From: an uncultured Methanomicrobiales archaeon
GTDB taxonomy: Archaea; Halobacteriota; Methanomicrobia; Methanomicrobiales; Methanospirillaceae
NCBI GenBank assembly: GCA_903832665.1
Contig: CAILCG010000014.1
Coordinates: forward strand, 248,001 to 312,000
Length of the DNA stretch: 64,000 bases
Direction: 5' to 3'
Shown: piece after piece, positions 29,523-39,062 of the stretch
Layout of the letters: every line of letters begins with the position of its first letter
Numbering within the stretch: the first letter of the stretch is position 1
Position numbers and translations under genes: made by a program
The notes under the pieces: model-generated
The model's input: the letters and a program-made list of their open reading frames with translations, nothing else
Databases searched by the model: none
Told to the model about the DNA's origin: nothing

Positions 29523-30977
29523 ATGAGTCCACGTTTCGAGGCAGCAACTACCCTGCGAAAAAAACCCGGTGAATGCTTCCCGGTCGGCTTCCCCACGGAA
29601 CGGCCTCGTGGCCACGCATTGAACGGGTTCTCCGGCCGACACTCCTCCAGAGGGGTATTTCTCATTCTTGTTGCGGCAATACTACTCTTCTCGCCAGCTT
29701 CCGCAAGCATTGCGAATAACAACGGCCATCAGGAAACGGGAGGAACACCTTACCCCGGCCCCTCTCACCCGGAGTCTGGCACTGTTCCGGGAGCTCCGGC
29801 TCTTCCATCAGAATCAGCAGAGATCATCGTCCATGGACAAAAAACCGGAACAACGGATCCGGAACCTGTCGGAGGAACCGGCAACCTTACCTTGCCATTC
29901 ATTGCAGGTAACGCTACACCAGGAAGTATCAGCCGCCATTACACCTTCCCTTTCCAGAAATCCAATATCACCGTCACGACAATGGTGAGCAATGCTGCTT
30001 ATTACGGGGCAAAAAACGGCGATAAATTCGCAATAATCTCACAGGAGACCGCACCCGAAACCCTTGCCGCCGATTACTACCGGGCGTTTGTTAATGATCC
30101 ACATCAGGACCAGTTCTATACCAGCCTCATCCAGAGTTTCCGCAGCATCCGTACGGATCACAACTATTCCGATGACGAATATCTTGAACTGTTGACGGTC
30201 TTTGTGCAGAGCCTTCCTTACGACAATGAATCGGCTGTACACCCCGGTAATCCCTCGCGTTTCCCGGTCGAAACTATTGTTGAGGGCACCGGTGATTGCG
30301 ATGACAAGAGCGTCTTACTTGCCGGTTTCCTCTCCCGGGAGGGATTCAACGTATCCCTCCTCCTCTTTATCCCGGAACACCACATGGCAGTCGGGATCGC
30401 AGGAGATCGCATGCAGTACCGGAATAGCGGGTACATGTATGTCGAGACCACGGGCGTTTCGTTCATGGGGGATGTCCCACCTGCACTGAACCAGTCAGTA
30501 AAATACGTTCCTTTCGGCCAGCTCCCGCGAACTACCCCAATAACCAGTATACCGGTGGTGATCCGGGTGGGTTCAGGTTCCAAACGGTTCACCCGTGCGG
30601 ATGAAGCAGAATATATCTTACTCCAGAAAAAAGAGGTTGATGCACGGATCGCGTTACTCAGGGTACATCTCAACACTACCTCACGGGACAGTCCCCCGTA
30701 CAGGACACTCATGGAGAACTATTACACCTACACGGGTATCCACAACTATATTGTGAAGCACGAGCAGGACCGGGCCGGTACCTACCGGTACCTCACCACC
30801 CAGCTGCCACCTGCATTCTCATCTGTCAGCCCCGCGGACAACCCGCCCTGTCCGAATTCCCTGGCAGGTGATGAAAACGGGCAGGTATGGTATCTGCCAT
30901 GTCCCCGAGGGATCTGGGTACCGCAACGGTGCGTGTGGCAGAGTGAGCGGCAGGAATTCATCACCCCGTGTTCGTAA
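29523..30977 (+). CDS. Secreted transglutaminase-like protein
   Basis: A 484-residue protein. A charged N-terminal segment of about 43 residues precedes a hydrophobic helix (GVFLILVAAILLFSPASAS), then a low-complexity Pro/Gly/Thr stretch. The catalytic-type core lies at 180-320: FVQSLPYDNESA, then VEGTGDCDDKSVLLAGFLSREGFNVSLLLF with Cys 259, and IPEHHMAVG with His 286 or 287; the third member may be the Glu/Asp in VETTGVSFMGD. It may cut or cross-link surface proteins; activity is inferred. The C terminus has four cysteines near its end. Confidence 0.8.
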   Translation: MSPRFEAATTLRKKPGECFPVGFPTERPRGHALNGFSGRHSSRGVFLILVAAILLFSPASASIANNNGHQETGGTPYPGPSHPESGTVPGAPALPSESAEIIVHGQKTGTTDPEPVGGTGNLTLPFIAGNATPGSISRHYTFPFQKSNITVTTMVSNAAYYGAKNGDKFAIISQETAPETLAADYYRAFVNDPHQDQFYTSLIQSFRSIRTDHNYSDDEYLELLTVFVQSLPYDNESAVHPGNPSRFPVETIVEGTGDCDDKSVLLAGFLSREGFNVSLLLFIPEHHMAVGIAGDRMQYRNSGYMYVETTGVSFMGDVPPALNQSVKYVPFGQLPRTTPITSIPVVIRVGSGSKRFTRADEAEYILLQKKEVDARIALLRVHLNTTSRDSPPYRTLMENYYTYTGIHNYIVKHEQDRAGTYRYLTTQLPPAFSSVSPADNPPCPNSLAGDENGQVWYLPCPRGIWVPQRCVWQSERQEFITPCS

Positions 30978-31113: not shown

Positions 31114-31938
31114 TCAGAGGTCAGCAGTTCCGGCCATGGCAGGATAGCACACCGTGCTGACTGCACCCGACGACTGTCCCGGCAAACCGGAACTATCCTC
31201 ACAACATTTCATCAGGTAGGATAATGTTGTTTCAGACAGGATAAACCGGGAAAAACGCCCGTCCTTTCGTGCGTGCAAGATCCCGTCATCGATAAGCCGT
31301 TTCATATGCCAGGAAACTGTTGGGCCGGATACCCCGAGCATCTTTTCAAAATCCGTGCGGGCCATCAGGGGGTTCCTGGCAAGAGCGAGCAGGATCATTT
31401 TATCGGTATCCTGACGCAGGTACTTCATCACTTTCAATTCGCACTCACCATATTTGCCGGAATTCTCAAAAAAACTGATAATGCCGTGATCCTTGAGGAG
31501 AATAATTTTCCCGGAAATTCTCATCCGGGCGAGATGGTAGGTGAGCGCCCCGCGGGATATCCCCGTTTCCTGGGATAACTCAATAAAGCTGATCCCCGGA
31601 CGGGTTCGGATGAGGCCATAGAGAGTATTTCGTACCGTGCTGGCGAGGATATTACTCCTCGCAATCCTCTTAAACCCGAAAATGGAAAGGAGTTTTAACG
31701 TGAAAAAAATCTCGACCGGAAAGAGACAGGCCGGTGAGATGGCGAGTGCCCCGATAATAACCATTTCACGGAACGTGAGATCCCAAAAGGAGATAGGGAC
31801 AACACCTGTTGTGGCTATCCCGGCAGACCCGAATGCCGGTTCAACGGTGTATACCAGGGGGAGAGCGACTGCCGGGGCTGCAAGTGCCGCGACAAGAGCA
31901 GCAAGCAGTACAACAGAAAACATCTCCCTCCATTTCAT
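31114..31938 (-). CDS. Membrane-anchored regulator with two winged-helix domains
   Basis: A 274-residue protein from the ATG at 31938 (an upstream in-frame ATG at 32004 overlaps the neighbouring gene). Two hydrophobic segments (MFSVVLLAALVAALAAPAVAL and FREMVIIGALAISPACLFPVEIFF) flank a short extracellular loop. Two winged-helix domains follow: TVRNTLYGLIRTRPGISFIELSQETGISRGALTYHLARM and MILLALARNPLMARTDFEKMLGVSGPTVSWHMKRLIDDGIL. It is probably a one-component regulator that senses the envelope. The gene adjoins three exported-protein genes sharing a palindromic promoter element, so it is the natural candidate to bind it. Confidence 0.8.
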   Translation of the reverse strand: MKWREMFSVVLLAALVAALAAPAVALPLVYTVEPAFGSAGIATTGVVPISFWDLTFREMVIIGALAISPACLFPVEIFFTLKLLSIFGFKRIARSNILASTVRNTLYGLIRTRPGISFIELSQETGISRGALTYHLARMRISGKIILLKDHGIISFFENSGKYGECELKVMKYLRQDTDKMILLALARNPLMARTDFEKMLGVSGPTVSWHMKRLIDDGILHARKDGRFSRFILSETTLSYLMKCCEDSSGLPGQSSGAVSTVCYPAMAGTADL

Positions 31939-31979
31939 GACAATATAATTATTTTTGTATACAGGTATCAGCCTTGTGG

Positions 31980-32462
31980 TCAGGTTGTGCCGGTCCTGAT
32001 CCATGAAAGATTTTCGAGGCTGCCTGAAGAGATATTTTTGTAACTGTGGACCTGGAATTTCCAGACACCCGGGGTCATATCACCGGGATTATTAATCCTC
32101 AGGTCAATCCTCCCGTCAATCCTGCCGTCCGATCCATCGTAAAAAGGGCCAAGGGTCTTGTCGGGGTTGATAATCGTTAATGAGAGCGGATCAGCCGTAT
32201 CCCCGCTGTAGAGCGAGACAATAATATACGGAGTTTCGGCAGACACGTATTTTGAGAACAGGGCGGTGTGTTCCGGTCGACCGGCCCTGTCCGGCGCAGG
32301 CAGAAGTCCGTTCATCCCGGGTTCTATTGATAGGTTGAGAGGATTGTCCATGATCGCAGGTGCGTCGTATCACTCAGGGGCCGGCACATGACCCGGGAAA
32401 GCGATCGCCAGGGCAAGTATTGCACCGGCACCGAGCAGCACCGCAATCCACAGGATTTTCAT
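31980..32462 (-). pseudogene. Exported protein gene interrupted by an in-frame TGA
   Basis: From ATG 32462 the frame encodes a signal peptide, MKILWIAVLLGAGAILALAIAF, then GHVPAPE and TGA at 32370-32372. The same frame continues without shift for 129 codons (DNPLNLSIEPGMNGLLP, then YIIVSLYSGDTADPLSLTIINPD, INNPGDMTPGVWKFQVHSYK) to a stop at 31980. This looks like one secreted beta-sandwich protein of about 160 residues split by a nonsense mutation. Selenocysteine or read-through is possible in principle but unsupported. It is divergent from the DUF4349 gene across the palindromic element and lies upstream of the regulator gene. Confidence 0.65.
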
Positions 32463-32535
32463 ACTAAGAGATTCTCCCGGGAACGATATAGGATTGCCTT
32501 CTGGTTTCACTCTTGCCGGTACTCCTTGACATGTA

Positions 32536-32547
32536 GAGCATTTGCTC
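32536..32547. promoter_or_regulatory. Palindromic promoter element, copy 1
   Basis: GAGCATTTGCTC is a perfect inverted repeat (GAGCA, TT, TGCTC), preceded by GACATGTA and followed by ATAAATCGTTTA. It lies between the divergent exported-protein pseudogene and the DUF4349 gene, 82 bp before that gene's ATG. The same 30-bp context occurs at 34780 and 37200. Confidence 0.75.
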
Positions 32548-32628
32548 ATAAATCGTTTACATAACCATAGCTTTTTTCTGATCATACAAATCCCGGCCGC
32601 GATTATTGTGCGACCGGGGGGATTATGT

Positions 32629-33996
32629 ATGACACAGAAAAACCCTCAATGCCTGATAATATCAGGTATCATAACGAGTCTGGTCATCGCATGGCTGGTG
32701 ATGGTACTTATCACTCCGGCTTTTGCCGGGAACAGTAGTACAGAACCCGCATTCACGTCATCCTACCAGCGAGACGTTACACTACAGAGTGCAGCCCAGT
32801 CCATGGTCCCGGATAATGATACGGGCGAAGAACAGACAGAAGTAGCCGACGTCCTTTCCCCATTGGGGACCGGAGACCGTGCGTGGCAGTTTTATGTCGA
32901 TACCACGACATTCAAACCTGACGAGTATATCGTAACTGCCGAAGCGGTTGTGGAGAAAGCGACCGGTACTGCACTCTTCAATGTCCTTGACCATTCATCA
33001 TCCGGCCAGGGCGGGGCTCCGCAGAAGACGCAGGTTACTTCACCCCGCCCGGCTCTCGGGGAATATTACATCACGATCGACCCCATCAGCGACCGGGTTG
33101 TCGGGGAGAAGTTTTCGATAACCGGCAGGACGAACCTGCCCGAATCTTCCGAGATGCTCGTACAGGTCTATTCGTCTTCTTTCAAGCCCACGCAGAAGAG
33201 CCAGAGCGGGGAGTTCTCCGGCGCCACCGGAACCGTCCGGGCATCTGATTCATCCCTGCCGGTGCCGGCCCTGGCGCCTCTGCAGAAGGATCCGGGGGTA
33301 AAAGGCTCCGATGCAAAAATTATCAAGACCGCAACGATCACGCTCGAAGTACCGGATGTTGCCAGCTCGGTTGAAGCCTTCCAGGCACTGGCAATCGCAC
33401 AGGGAGGGTACCTCTCTTCAACAACGCTCCAGGCAAATGGCAAACGGCATACCGGGACCATTGTGCTCCGCATCCCGCAATCAAAGTTCGAGACCACCAT
33501 TGCCGGGGTGAAATCAGCGGGAACGGTCAATGCCTTCACCTCACAGGGTGAGGATGTGACCGAGGAGTATATCGATCTCAAGGCCCAGAAAAAATCGTAC
33601 CAGGTCCAGCTCGCCCAGTATTATGTGCTGATGAAGAAGGCAGTAAAAATAACCGACATCATCGCGATCCAGCAGCAGATCGACCGGGTGCAGACCGAAC
33701 TGAACCGGCTCGAAGGCCGGCTGAAGTATCTCGAGAGCCGGGTTGACCTGTCGACCATCACGATCACCCTCCAGGAACCCGAACCGGTCCTGGTCCCCAC
33801 GGAACCCGGGCATAACTTTGTATCTGCCATCAACAAGGGGATCGAGGGGTTGTTCGGTCTGATTGATGCCATAATCATCGCCGCGATCACTTTCCTGCCG
33901 GCCATTGTCGTTGCGTGCGCCGTGTATGGGATTTACCGGTGGAGAAAGGGGAAGCGGTCGGTGATGGCTGCTACCGAAATACCCGGTGAGAAATAA
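32629..33996 (+). CDS. DUF4349 membrane protein with methanogen surface domain
   Basis: A 455-residue protein from ATG 32629. An N-terminal signal anchor (CLIISGIITSLVIAWLVMVLITPAFA) is followed by the surface module TFKPDEYIVTAEAVVEKATGTALFNVLD and YYITIDPISDRVVGEKFSITGRTNL, VQVYSSSFKPTQKSQSGEFSG. Then comes DUF4349: KTATITLEVPDVASSVEAFQALAIAQGGYLSS, a coiled coil (DIIAIQQQIDRVQTELNRLEGRLKYLESRVDLSTITITLQ) and a C-terminal membrane helix. The surface module is almost identical to that of the next gene, suggesting duplication. Function is unknown; DUF4349 proteins are envelope proteins. Confidence 0.85.
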   Translation: MTQKNPQCLIISGIITSLVIAWLVMVLITPAFAGNSSTEPAFTSSYQRDVTLQSAAQSMVPDNDTGEEQTEVADVLSPLGTGDRAWQFYVDTTTFKPDEYIVTAEAVVEKATGTALFNVLDHSSSGQGGAPQKTQVTSPRPALGEYYITIDPISDRVVGEKFSITGRTNLPESSEMLVQVYSSSFKPTQKSQSGEFSGATGTVRASDSSLPVPALAPLQKDPGVKGSDAKIIKTATITLEVPDVASSVEAFQALAIAQGGYLSSTTLQANGKRHTGTIVLRIPQSKFETTIAGVKSAGTVNAFTSQGEDVTEEYIDLKAQKKSYQVQLAQYYVLMKKAVKITDIIAIQQQIDRVQTELNRLEGRLKYLESRVDLSTITITLQEPEPVLVPTEPGHNFVSAINKGIEGLFGLIDAIIIAAITFLPAIVVACAVYGIYRWRKGKRSVMAATEIPGEK

Positions 33997-34022
33997 TTAC
34001 TGGACTGATGGGGAGGATCGAA

Positions 34023-34200
34023 TTTTTTTTTTTGCTCTGTAGAAATCCTTACAGGGAAATAAGAGGACCTCTGGGGGTCAAGGGGGGCGCTCCCCTTGGG
34101 ATGCCTCCCCCTCTGGGGGAGAGAGGGGGTCACCCTCACATATCACAATAAGGAACTGGTAAGTACCGGGAAAATGAGGATTTCTACAGAGTCCTTTTTT
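34023..34200 (-). repeat. Dispersed repeat, copy 3 (internally deleted, with inverted ends)
   Basis: The left end TTTTTGCTCTGTAGAAATCC (about 34030-34049) is matched in inverted form on the right by GGATTTCTACAGAG (34178-34191). Between them lies the GC-rich core (GGGGGTCAAGGGGGGCGC, TGCCTCCCCCTCTGG, GAGGGGGTCACC), but the middle section found in copies 2, 4 and 5 is missing. The rest of the 33997-34885 gap carries the second promoter element and no recognisable gene. Confidence 0.75.
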
Positions 34201-34788
34201 TCAATCACTGCATCCCGGAGAAGGCGAGAACCGGAGGAATTTTCGCACACCCATTCGCTGCTGTAGGATCCACCTGTAGAGGGAGCGGGTTGCGGGGAGC
34301 CGGGAGTGCTGAGAGATTGATTGATCAACCCTGATAAGATCCTCTTATCCGTGCCCATTTAAGCCCCGGATTCCCCCTCCCAAAACCATTTTTGTCTCTC
34401 ATTTGCGAAATTACATCCCTGTTGTTTTTTAATAACTCTAAAATAAACCCTGATTGCTATAAAACCTGAGAATAATGCCCGGAAAAGAAGTCTCCCCAGG
34501 CCCTTTTGGAAGTCCGATCTCCCCAAATTCAGATTCTCCTTTTCTCATACAATTCCGTGAAAAATCACCCTGCAAAAAACCGCACGTATTCGCGTTCGGA
34601 TAGCCGATCCCGTGTGCCCGCGATAGACTGGACGGTCAGGAAAATTAAGAGCAGATTCCAGGATTCCCAACTCTCACCTCTGATAATCACATTAACCGGG
34701 AATGTCAGACAAGAGGGATTTCAGGTTCTCCGACGGAAACATAAAGATTCGGTGGGATGGTCTCTCCCCCACTCACCCGGGATGTGTA

Positions 34789-34800
34789 GAGGATTTGCTC
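34789..34800. promoter_or_regulatory. Palindromic promoter element, copy 2
   Basis: GAGGATTTGCTC differs from the other two copies by one base in the left arm. The flanks GATGTGTA and ATAAATCGTTTATTTAC match the shared context. It lies 86 bp before the ATG of the beta-propeller gene. Confidence 0.7.
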
Positions 34801-34885
34801 ATAAATCGTTTATTTACCTGAACCTTTTTTTCTCCACAGAAGCGAAAATTCCCATCGCTCCGTTCCCCACAGGGGGTGATCACGT

Positions 34886-37132
34886 ATGACAACAAAAAAC
34901 GTACCGCTCCTGATCCTTTCAGGACTCATAACGGGCATCATCATCGCTTACGTGGTGATGACCGCGTTTCCGCTGCACCCGACGGAAACCACCAGTACCG
35001 CACTACTGAACCAGCCGATTCTCCAACAGAAAGTCACTCCCGGCGCTGAAGAGCCCCAACAGTTTTCATCGATAGAAGAGGCCCGGGCATTCCTCATCAC
35101 CCATACCGAGGGAAATGATAAACCGCAGCTCCTTACAGGTGGATCAACCCCAGTGGATACCCGCGAATGGTCCACGGTAAACAGTACCCGGACCTGGAGG
35201 TTCGATGTTGATACCTCTACTTTCAAACCCGACGAGTATATCGTGACCGCTGATGCAATCCTGCAGCACGCAACCGGCACGGCCCTCTTCAATGTCCTCG
35301 ATTCACCCCAGGCCAGGACATCGCAGCCGGCACAGGGACCCCGTCCAACATCGTCCACGGATGGATATTTCATCAGCATCAATCCGATTGGCGACCGGTA
35401 CGTGGGTGAGAAATTCACCATCACCGGGCGGACCAACCTTGCAGCAGATGACGAGATGCTCATCCAGGTCTACTCCTCCTCCTTCAAGCCAACGCAAAAG
35501 AGCCAGAGCGGGGAGTTCTCCGGATCGACCGGGACAGTACGGGCATCTTCATCATCCCAACCGGTACCGGCATCAACCTCTGCTCCGGCGCCGGATTGCG
35601 ACCGGAAATATTCCACCACAAACGTCCAGGTTCGCGATGTGGACGAGGCTGATATCGTCAAGACTGACGGGACATATGTCTATGTTGTCACGGGCAGCCA
35701 CCTCAATATCCTGCATGCGTATCCTGCCGATACCGCAGGAATTATCGCGACCCTGCAGTTTTCCGGATCACCCCAGTCGCTGTACCCCCATGGAGACCAG
35801 CTTGTGCTGATCAGTTCTGAGTATAAGTCTCGGACCGTCATGAACTGCCAGCCGGGCGCCTGCGGCACCACCATGCCAACCGACCAGAAGACCCGGGTAT
35901 TTATATATTCGGTAAAGGACCCGGCTCATCCGGCCCTCCAGCGCGAGATGGAATTAGACGGCGTGTATAAGGACACCCGCATGATCGGCTCCCTGCTCTA
36001 TTTTGTCACTAATGACTACATCGACCGGTATGACGGGGATGTGACATTTCCGGCAATGTATGACAGCCGTAGGGGAACGACAGTCCCCCCGGTCTATTAT
36101 TTCAACAAAAAAGACCGGAAGTTCTCCTTGACAACGGTCGGGGCAGTTGACATCCGGGCGGACGAACCGATACGGGCAAGAGCATTCCTCATGGGCTCTG
36201 CGGGCACAGTCTACGTCTCTCCGGAGAACATGTATATTGCGATAACCTCCAATGGCGATTCCCGTACGTCGCAAAGTACCGACCTGTATTCCTTTGCCCT
36301 TAACAATGGCCGGATATCCTTTACCGCACACGGAACCATAGACGGGACACTGCTCAACCAGTTCTCAATGGACGAGTACGGGGGCAACCTGCGGGTTGCG
36401 ACAACGATTCAGGACTGGAGCGGCCGATGGAACACCAGGTTCAGCAAGGTGTCGGTCCTGGACAACCAGATGCAGATCATGGGATCGGTGGATAATCTCG
36501 CACCCGGAGAGAAGATTTATGCAGCACGTTTCATGGGAGAACGGTTGTCTCTCGTGACCTTCCGTGAAACCGACCCGCTCTTTGTCATTGACCTTGCAGT
36601 ACCAAAGAGCCCGAAGGTACTTGGCGAACTGCATATCCCCGGGTTCTCCCGGTACCTGCACCCGTACGACGCCACCCACCTCATCGGGGTTGGGAAGCAA
36701 TCCACTCGGGGCGGCCTGAAAATTGCTCTCTTCAATGTAACCGATGTGCACAACCCGCAACTGGTCGGTGAGAAGAGACTGGGCGGATACGGCAGCGATT
36801 CCGAGGTACTTACGGATCACAAGGCCTTCCTGTTTGACCGCGAAAAGGACCTGCTGGTCCTGCCGGTCCATATTGTAGAGGATGCTACGTCGTCCGAAGG
36901 CATTCACCCGATCTGGGGCGGGGCGTACGTATTTGGCGTGAACCCGCTGAAAGGATTTAACGAAAAAGGCATCGTAATCCATTACCGGGACGACAACTCT
37001 GCATCCTATGATGTGAAACGTTCATTCTACATCGAAAATATCCTCTATACCATGGCCCGGGACAAGATCGTCATGAGTGATCTGAAGAACGGCACGGCGC
37101 TTATCGGAGCAGTTGAACTGGGCCAGGGCTGA
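34886..37132 (+). CDS. Secreted protein with C-terminal beta-propeller domain
   Basis: A 748-residue exported protein. The signal anchor (LLILSGLITGIIIAYVVMTAF) is followed at about 105-230 by the same surface module as the preceding gene (STFKPDEYIVTADAILQHATGTALFNVLD; FISINPIGDRYVGEKFTITGRTNL; VYSSSFKPTQKSQSGEFSG). From about 245 the COG4880-type beta-propeller begins: TNVQVRDVDEADIVKTDGTYVYVVTGSHLNILHAYP, with later VFIYSVKDPAHPALQREMELDG and GFSRYLHPYDATHLIGVG. There is no C-terminal anchor. It starts at ATG 34886 with GGGGGTGAT upstream. Function is unknown; binding at the cell surface is likely. Confidence 0.88.
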   Translation: MTTKNVPLLILSGLITGIIIAYVVMTAFPLHPTETTSTALLNQPILQQKVTPGAEEPQQFSSIEEARAFLITHTEGNDKPQLLTGGSTPVDTREWSTVNSTRTWRFDVDTSTFKPDEYIVTADAILQHATGTALFNVLDSPQARTSQPAQGPRPTSSTDGYFISINPIGDRYVGEKFTITGRTNLAADDEMLIQVYSSSFKPTQKSQSGEFSGSTGTVRASSSSQPVPASTSAPAPDCDRKYSTTNVQVRDVDEADIVKTDGTYVYVVTGSHLNILHAYPADTAGIIATLQFSGSPQSLYPHGDQLVLISSEYKSRTVMNCQPGACGTTMPTDQKTRVFIYSVKDPAHPALQREMELDGVYKDTRMIGSLLYFVTNDYIDRYDGDVTFPAMYDSRRGTTVPPVYYFNKKDRKFSLTTVGAVDIRADEPIRARAFLMGSAGTVYVSPENMYIAITSNGDSRTSQSTDLYSFALNNGRISFTAHGTIDGTLLNQFSMDEYGGNLRVATTIQDWSGRWNTRFSKVSVLDNQMQIMGSVDNLAPGEKIYAARFMGERLSLVTFRETDPLFVIDLAVPKSPKVLGELHIPGFSRYLHPYDATHLIGVGKQSTRGGLKIALFNVTDVHNPQLVGEKRLGGYGSDSEVLTDHKAFLFDREKDLLVLPVHIVEDATSSEGIHPIWGGAYVFGVNPLKGFNEKGIVIHYRDDNSASYDVKRSFYIENILYTMARDKIVMSDLKNGTALIGAVELGQG

Positions 37133-37208
37133 CCCGGATCCCAATCTTTTTCTTTAGGTTCTGCTGCCATAATTTCGCAAAATACAACCCGCAGCAGCGC
37201 GACATGTA

Positions 37209-37220
37209 GAGCATTTGCTC
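37209..37220. promoter_or_regulatory. Palindromic promoter element, copy 3
   Basis: GAGCATTTGCTC again forms a perfect inverted repeat, with GACATGTA before and ATAAATCGTTTAAATATC after. The A/T-rich 3' part probably includes the TATA box. It is 86 bp before the ATG at 37306 and identical to copy 1 through 27 consecutive positions. Confidence 0.75.
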
Positions 37221-37305
37221 ATAAATCGTTTAAATATCCAAAGGATAGTTTTCAGGCAGAAGCACCTGGCTAAAGTTGCAGGTGTGTTTTTAGGAATGTG
37301 AAAAA

Positions 37306-37854
37306 ATGGTAAATGGAAACAGAAGAAGAGATGGATTTCTGGATATACCGTGGGTAGCGATTGCTGCTGCTGCGGGAGTAATTGTCGTAGTAATATGTGC
37401 AGCATTATTTTTCATGGGAGGCAATGGGGATCCCACTGGCATAACTACTCCTGTGTCAACAGGAACGCCGTCGTCTCCCGGTCCGTCAGTCACTCACCAT
37501 GTCGTCACCCCCTCATCGGGACAACCCGGTAAGCTGACCTACAATGTTGCACTGACCGGTTATGAACCCGATAGCATACCTGTACCGGATAAAGGGACAT
37601 TTATCAAAGTCATTTACCGCGGGGGGTACGACGGGACATACACGTCAGGATCCGGACCACAGGAACTGCGCAATTCCGGTGAGCGGGTAATTGAAATAGA
37701 AAATCCGGGCACAACGGTCACGGCAACGGTAAAAAAACAGGAAAGTTCCACAAAGCAGGCACTGACCGTTGAAATCTGGAAAAACGGGGCCCGGCTCGGC
37801 AGCAAGACCACGTCCCTTCCGTATGGGGAGGTGACAGTCAGCAGCGCTCTCTGA
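37306..37854 (+). CDS. Membrane-anchored exported protein of unknown function
   Basis: A 182-residue protein. A basic N terminus (MVNGNRRRDG) precedes one membrane helix (IPWVAIAAAAGVIVVVICAALFFMGG), then a Thr/Pro/Ser linker of about 35 residues and a beta-rich domain of about 105 residues (VIEIENPGTTVTATVKKQESSTKQALTVEIWKNGARLGSKTTSLPYGEVTVS). That domain resembles a small extracellular beta-sandwich, but I do not recognise the family. It is the third gene behind the shared palindromic element. Confidence 0.75.
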   Translation: MVNGNRRRDGFLDIPWVAIAAAAGVIVVVICAALFFMGGNGDPTGITTPVSTGTPSSPGPSVTHHVVTPSSGQPGKLTYNVALTGYEPDSIPVPDKGTFIKVIYRGGYDGTYTSGSGPQELRNSGERVIEIENPGTTVTATVKKQESSTKQALTVEIWKNGARLGSKTTSLPYGEVTVSSAL

Positions 37855-38060: not shown

Positions 38061-39062
38061 GTGTCCATGACAGAACCAGATGAAGAAATTTCCCAACTGA
38101 CCCGGCAGGCGAAACTATTTTCCGCGGATCTTTCGGCGCTCCGGGACGAGATGAAGAATGTCATTGTTGGTCAGGAAGCGGTGATCGACCGGCTCATCAT
38201 TGCCTTATGTGCAGACGGCCATGTGCTGCTGGAAGGAGTGCCGGGAATTGCAAAGACACTGATGATCCGCACCCTCTCCCAATGCATTGACTGCAGTTTT
38301 GTCCGGCTCCAGTTCACACCGGATCTTCTTCCCGCAGATATCATGGGAACCAAGATCTACAACCAGAAAGATGCAAGTTTCTCAACGATCAAGGGTCCGG
38401 TCTTTGCCCATTTTGTCCTTGCCGATGAGATCAACCGTGCACCGCCCAAAGTGCAGTCCGCCCTGCTTGAAGCCATGCAGGAGAAACAGGTGACCATCCA
38501 GGGCGAGACCCACCAGCTGGCCCGCCCGTTCTTTGTGCTGGCCACCCAGAACCCGATCGAATCGGAGGGTACCTATCCCCTCCCGGAGGCGCAGGTTGAC
38601 CGCTTCATGTTCAAGGTACTGATCACGTACCCGGCCAAAGAAGACGAGGTCCTGATTCTCGACCGGTTCACGGAAGGCACCACCGTCATCCCGAAAAAGG
38701 TGATGAGTACCGAAAAGATCCTCGACATCCAGTCATTCACCCGAAGCCTGTACGCCGATGCCTCCATCAAGCGCTATGTCACGGAGCTCGTGGATGCCAC
38801 CCGCCGGCCGGCAGCCTATGCAATAGACACGGCCAGGTACGTTGGCTACGGTGCCTCCCCGCGTGCATCGATCAGCCTGATCCTTGGTGCCAAGGCCCGG
38901 GCTCTGATGGCATGCCGGGGGTTCGTGCTGCCCGAGGATGTCAAGGCAGTGGCACATGATGTGCTCAGGCACCGGATTATCCTGACGTACGAAGGCGAAG
39001 CTGAAGGCGTAACTCCCGATGCGATTATCGACAGTATTCTTCGGAATGTCAAGGTACCATGA
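38061..39062 (+). CDS. MoxR-type AAA+ ATPase
   Basis: A 333-residue MoxR ATPase. VIVGQEAVIDRLIIALCADGHVLLEGVPGIAKT contains Walker A (EGVPGIAKT), VLADEINRAPPKVQSALLEAMQEKQVTI contains Walker B and sensor residues, and FVLATQNPIESEGTYPLPEAQVDRFMF is sensor 1. It is a chaperone-like ATPase thought to act with VWA proteins. The GTG at 38061 has AGGTGA nine bases upstream; ATG 38067 is an alternative. It opens a four-gene run with DUF58, VWA and BatD-like proteins. Confidence 0.95.
   Translation: MSMTEPDEEISQLTRQAKLFSADLSALRDEMKNVIVGQEAVIDRLIIALCADGHVLLEGVPGIAKTLMIRTLSQCIDCSFVRLQFTPDLLPADIMGTKIYNQKDASFSTIKGPVFAHFVLADEINRAPPKVQSALLEAMQEKQVTIQGETHQLARPFFVLATQNPIESEGTYPLPEAQVDRFMFKVLITYPAKEDEVLILDRFTEGTTVIPKKVMSTEKILDIQSFTRSLYADASIKRYVTELVDATRRPAAYAIDTARYVGYGASPRASISLILGAKARALMACRGFVLPEDVKAVAHDVLRHRIILTYEGEAEGVTPDAIIDSILRNVKVP

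Follow-up and report, generated by a model that had tools for sequence, protein, structure and literature searches.

A probable ToxRS-like membrane regulator circuit for surface-protein genes in Methanomicrobiales, linked to a two-block promoter element

What connects a membrane-anchored regulator to three neighboring genes for exported proteins that carry the same promoter sequence? The question arises from the window, a 64,000-nucleotide stretch of a 2.88-Mb archaeal genome, in which a sequence-only reading of the locus proposed that the regulator senses the envelope and controls a set of surface proteins through a shared palindromic site. The analysis presented here lends good support to a linked regulator-promoter system and extends it well beyond this locus, while replacing the palindrome with a two-block 27-mer. 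We consider it likely that the locus is an instance of a recurrent, two-part membrane regulator circuit for surface proteins in archaea that would operate along the lines of ToxRS. The features of the locus are collected in Table 1.

Table 1. Coordinates of the regulator cassette, promoter elements, target genes and conserved neighbor in the window
Feature	Position	Strand	Basis
Regulator, membrane-tethered	31114..32004	-	HTH_24 8.4e-16; HVO_0163_N 1.7e-07; predicted structure
Partner, putative PPC-domain, small, exported	31980..32462	-	Family alignment; 5' of regulator, same direction; TGA-broken
Composite promoter element copy 1 (GTAGAGCATTTGCTCATAAATCGTTTA)	32533..32559	+	Divergent region
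Target 1, exported: S-layer-type module then DUF4349	32629..33996	+	DUF4349 6.9e-57; S-layer module match
Composite promoter element copy 2 (GTAGAGGATTTGCTCATAAATCGTTTA)	34786..34812	+	
Target 2, exported: S-layer-type module then PF09826 beta-propeller	34886..37132	+	Beta_propel 1.5e-146
Composite promoter element copy 3 (GTAGAGCATTTGCTCATAAATCGTTTA)	37206..37232	+	
Target 3, small, N-terminal membrane anchor; unrelated to targets 1 and 2	37306..37854	+	
Neighbor, exported, transglutaminase-like by eye (GDCDDK motif)	29523..30977	+	

Re-reading the sequence bore out the placement of the shared site 82-86 bp ahead of the ATG of each target gene. The sequence GAGCATTTGCTCATAAATCGTTTA occurs exactly at 32536 and 37209 and in a one-mismatch form, GAGGATTTGCTC, at 34789, and the copies match each other over about 31 bp, at which point identity ends. 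The palindrome GAGCA-TT-TGCTC is perfect in copies 1 and 3 and broken in copy 2, and its symmetry is not conserved elsewhere, so that the promoter sequence is indeed shared but its palindromic character is not. A search of the whole genome for the 24-mer at up to 3 mismatches returned three copies, all in the window, versus none with the reversed-pattern control, in keeping with a motif that, within this genome, is specific to this regulon. The 12-bp palindrome alone was found 7 times at 2 mismatches versus 5.85 expected, which is not unusual, and the rarity of the repeats is thus due to the 24-27-mer rather than to the palindrome.

What is conserved among relatives is a 27-mer of fixed spacing, GTAGA[G/C]-N8-CA[G/T]AAATCGTTTA. 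Across 107 contexts, GTA, the A of GTAGA and most of CA[G/T]AAATCGTTTA are invariant, an invariance that is in part imposed by the search pattern, and the middle is variable. The spacing within the element is fixed and its distance to the start codon ranges from 31 to 236 nt, a combination to be expected of a promoter element but not of a leader or a ribosome-binding signal. We take the right block (AAATCGTTTATA) to resemble a BRE plus TATA box, a likeness that is uncalibrated because the signal of ordinary promoters in these genomes is too weak to place the core promoter. Identity with the general BRE/TATA of these genomes was rejected, since their other upstream regions show no enrichment of AAATCG, and reversed-pattern and reversed-sequence controls rule out a chance origin of the element.

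Among 149 genomes searched for the 24-mer at up to 3 mismatches, only G023 and G024 carry it besides the window genome, and none of the other 146 relatives does. In both, the element lies between the regulator cassette and the orthologue (68%) of the beta-propeller gene, target 2, which is the conserved target in these genomes. Relatives of the regulator are present in 111 of the 149 genomes, and G023 and G024 are exactly those that harbor its closest orthologues (63% and 54%, respectively; next best 40%). The expectation that the motif should precede orthologous genes and accompany the regulator is therefore borne out and, among genomes searched for both, no genome with a convincing site lacks a gene of the regulator family.

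Relaxing the palindrome in the search pattern yielded further sites in the genus, beside regulator paralogues, including six sites within 17 kb next to one paralogue in G033 and additional sites in G001, G022 and G032; the element also accompanies the propeller genes of G036 and G032. In a wider search of 395 genomes, the element was detected in 44, mostly Methanoculleus, with 1-5 copies each and about 115 sites in total, compared to 8 in the reversed control. An exact scan with GTAGASN8CAKAAATCGTTTA over a collection of approximately 85,000 species genomes, for which a rough uniform-base estimate gives about 7 chance matches in the whole collection, returned 51 stretches, 50 of them from Methanomicrobiales or unlabelled euryarchaeal MAGs and one from a contig labelled Bacillota. 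The element is hence almost confined to Methanomicrobiales, and further instances of the system, with diversified sites, occur in Methanoregula and Methanoculleus. The one contig labelled otherwise, 3.2 kb long and part of a Bacillota-labelled MAG (L226, JAAYAB010000313.1), bears a Methanoculleus-type element and is probably a misbinned archaeal contig. As a separate observation, the leaders 3' of the element at G033 and G030 sites (L168, L167 and L174) contain a conserved potential hairpin (GGACAGCCGGGGGCTGTCC) and a second inverted repeat, GGACGGGTTC...GAACCCGGTCC, ahead of paralogous secreted-protein genes.

The description of the regulator as a membrane-bound protein with two winged helices was upheld by matches to HTH_24 and HVO_0163_N and by the prediction of two membrane helices. 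The match to HTH_HVO_0163_N (PF24266), covering residues 123-189 of the ORF, is marginal at 31.6 bits versus a Pfam gathering cut-off of 31. Translation likely starts at the ATG at 31938. The structure model places transmembrane helices at residues 2-25 and 56-86 and winged helices at 94-158 and 165-234, with pLDDT about 95, and its fold is most like that of ArsR-family proteins; the predicted topology would leave a short outside loop of roughly 30 residues and locate the winged helices in the cytoplasm. With a DNA-binding domain and a transmembrane region in one protein, the regulator falls within the class of transmembrane transcription regulators (TTRs), in which Methanomicrobia are enriched according to the consulted passages of a published census, which give no PPC partner, element or regulon (PMC10269533).

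Of 67 distinct regulators, 51 have a small exported protein of a single family encoded directly 5' of them in the same direction; no partner was found beside the other 16. When loci were instead retrieved across the phylum with the partner as the only query, all 20 fetched loci carried an adjoining regulator, eight of these loci belonging to a family from outside the order, and the pairing is thus not a product of how loci were chosen. Nine of 21 members of the partner family match the PPC domain (PF04151) in Pfam, with a best E-value of 2e-08; the G024 partner, the nearest to the window copy, has no PPC match, and a fold search returned only weak beta-sandwich matches, none at E <= 0.001. The window gene contains an in-frame TGA at 32370-32372 on the minus strand, reading MKILWIAVLLGAGAILALAIAFPGHVPAPE-stop-YDAPAIMDNPL..., and its G023 and G024 relatives are intact; the search with the partner as query also registered a stop within its match here, and the TGA may be a true loss or a sequencing error. 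The sequence-only reading had located copy 1 in the divergent promoter of a secreted-protein gene, treated as an ordinary neighbor. The divergent position holds (start 32462, minus strand), but the gene is TGA-interrupted and is, instead of an ordinary neighbor, the cassette partner of the regulator.

The link between element and regulator was quantified in genomes where both sites and regulators had been listed. In these, a regulator is present within 15 kb of 39 of 56 sites, compared to 2.7 expected; counted by cluster, this holds for 18 of 31 versus 1.3 expected, and the simulated number never exceeded 8 in a million simulations. Some of the remaining 13 clusters are on short contigs, and others, including those of G118, G133, G103 and G113, represent genuinely distant sites. 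When the 1.5 kb upstream of each of 66 regulators was scanned with a weight matrix, for which the reversed-sequence control reached at most 0.9 bits, 46 regulators had a site above control, and 44 of these 46 sites read away from the regulator. Two regulators of G146 are flanked by different site types, the common Methanoculleus type and GTAGAGGATCGTGCCAGAGATCTTATT, the latter recurring beside the G123 regulator. Site variants track the regulator and not the genome. Among 22 representatives more than 30% apart, distances between DNA-binding domains correlate with distances between sites (r = 0.36, 2/5000 permutations) and DNA-binding-domain distance also correlates with the variable block of the site (r = 0.31, 0/5000 permutations); shared descent of linked DNA contributes to such co-divergence, and the correlation therefore supports recognition without proving it. 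The distant sites of Methanoculleus (G118:C1:2323223, G133:C15:275358, G103:C8:657966 and G113:C3:81006), which are of the GTAGACGCGTGAGAC type and far from listed regulators, precede a run of paralogous small lipoprotein genes, and they suggest that the system acts in trans as well.

A specialised TFB/TBP or other transcription factor might nonetheless read the element, leaving the regulator as a linked neighbor or co-regulated passenger. The nearly invariant, BRE-plus-TATA-like right half would suit such a reader, as would the sites that lack a linked regulator and the absence of a recognisable element from most regulator-bearing genomes, the regulator family being far wider than the element. 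We nevertheless judge this unlikely, given that the lack of AAATCG enrichment in other upstream regions speaks against a general core promoter, that in G146 two regulators go with two site types, one of them common to G123, and that the orientation bias of upstream sites is so pronounced. We infer instead that the regulator itself binds the element.

The genes downstream of the element form a coherent class. For 87 of 99 distinct sites, an ORF of at least 80 aa begins no more than 260 nt downstream, and 79 of these 87 ORFs (91%) have a strongly hydrophobic N-terminus, mostly an obvious signal peptide, lipoprotein signal or anchor, as opposed to 38% of other long ORFs at the same loci and 17% at random positions. 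In the window, targets 1 and 2 have in common a signal peptide and a module that had been described as nearly identical; the module is homologous, but near identity is limited to a core of about 30 residues, the whole showing 48% identity over 232 residues. This module is also present in S-layer-glycoprotein-like proteins of the genus and corresponds to the C-terminal part of the S-layer glycoprotein family NF041431 (MEMAR_RS02690), a partial match at 117.8 and 137.2 bits versus a curated cut-off of 600 that places neither target in the family; unlike its members, the targets end in DUF4349 or a beta-propeller. The occurrence of a module of about 120 residues, seen also at G000:C4:75144-75470, in fusion with both DUF4349 and a beta-propeller suggests a reusable surface-attachment module. 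Because other DUF4349 relatives in the genus align to target 1 only from about residue 180 onward, target 1 seems to have arisen by a local fusion, a DUF4349 gene having acquired at its front the promoter, the signal peptide and the module of the propeller gene. Target 3 has no match in a Pfam scan, and its relatives elsewhere in the genus lack the element. A Pfam scan of ten targets from other loci produced a single match, to a reprolysin-like metallopeptidase.

Two further genes adjoin the set. The transglutaminase-like neighbor has no match in a Pfam scan and no element upstream, and in G024 its counterpart (L037:9201-10598) adjoins the regulator. On the 3' side of target 3, at 38061-39062 of the window, lies a gene for a MoxR-type ATPase, which has a bpMoxR match, and the element is absent before it.

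The kinship of targets 1 and 2, together with the long leaders common to the six G033 sites, could be taken to mean that the three copies of the element are simply the product of a recently duplicated stretch of promoter or gene and serve no dedicated regulation. This is very improbable, as identity ends after approximately 31 bp, target 3 is unrelated to the other two, the element has been kept in G023, G024, G036 and G032 where its flanks have diverged, and in another family it is again found ahead of unrelated exported genes; duplication accounts for copy number but not for conservation. Least credible is that the regulator works through GAGCA-TT-TGCTC with the remainder incidental: inverted repeats are often bound by winged-helix dimers, which counts in its favor along with the perfect palindromes of copies 1 and 3 and the inverted repeats of some other variants (ACGATCGT, GAC-N4-GTC), but the palindrome is broken in copy 2 and in the G023 and G024 sites, the center of symmetry moves between variants, and pairing in 55 distinct sites is near the column-shuffled level (3.02 vs 2.88 +/- 0.08 paired positions), for which reason we rejected the palindrome as a conserved operator.

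The two-part circuit we favor would operate as follows. A two-gene cassette encodes the small exported PPC-type protein and the membrane-tethered regulator, and the latter would bind the 27-mer at, and probably overlapping, the core promoter (BRE/TATA). The bound promoters would be those of exported-protein genes that are nearby and sometimes distant, the three element-bearing targets of the window among them. The placement of the element would slightly favor activation over repression. By analogy with ToxS and ToxR, a type of system in which physical contact between the extracytoplasmic parts controls activity, the exported partner probably reads an extracellular condition and gates the regulator via its outside loop.

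The closest parallels to this arrangement are found in two known systems. ToxRS-type co-component regulators of Vibrio combine a tethered winged-helix regulator with an extracytoplasmic partner and control envelope and surface genes (PMC7265457, PMC8359183, PMC13042144). The archaeal system likewise pairs a membrane-tethered winged-helix regulator with an extracytoplasmic partner encoded alongside it, but it differs in its two N-terminal transmembrane helices, its tandem C-terminal winged helices of ArsR-like/HVO_0163-like type, its putative PPC-domain partner and an element that probably abuts an archaeal-type core promoter. The N-terminal OmpR/PhoB-type winged helix (Trans_reg_C) of ToxRS is absent, the only matches being to HTH_24, MarR_2, HTH_5 and HVO_0163_N, all C-terminal. 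In Sulfolobus acidocaldarius, ArnR and ArnR1 are membrane-bound one-component regulators of surface-structure promoters that recognize inverted repeats, TCGAC-N5-GTCGA, just upstream of BRE/TATA; in ArnR, a single HTH at the N-terminus is followed by a HAMP-like domain and then by transmembrane segments, and no exported partner has been reported (PMC6396743). The regulator described here is similarly archaeal, membrane-bound and tied to surface-gene promoters, its binding being predicted, but it has its transmembrane helices first and its two winged helices last, shows no HAMP match and is associated with one two-block element per promoter, of unconserved palindromy, instead of paired inverted-repeat boxes. 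The system thus resembles both ToxRS and ArnR/ArnR1 in its working but belongs to neither, and a search of the open-access literature, extending to few subscription papers, found no description of the cassette or the element.

With somewhat more doubt than confidence, we put forward that partner and membrane-bound winged-helix regulator may constitute an archaeal co-component signalling class reaching past Methanomicrobiales, in which paralogue-specific addresses between GTAGA and CAGAAATCG would set up parallel surface-protein regulons within a genome. Little is known of how archaea perceive conditions outside the membrane and adjust their surface coat, and sites or targets have been assigned to few of their membrane-bound regulators. 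The present system offers all the pieces side by side in dozens of genomes: regulator, likely sensor partner, promoter element and target genes. By means of the element, such regulons can be predicted from sequence and the regulator-site code can be tested directly, which opens a first functional route to many methanogen surface proteins whose role is obscure.
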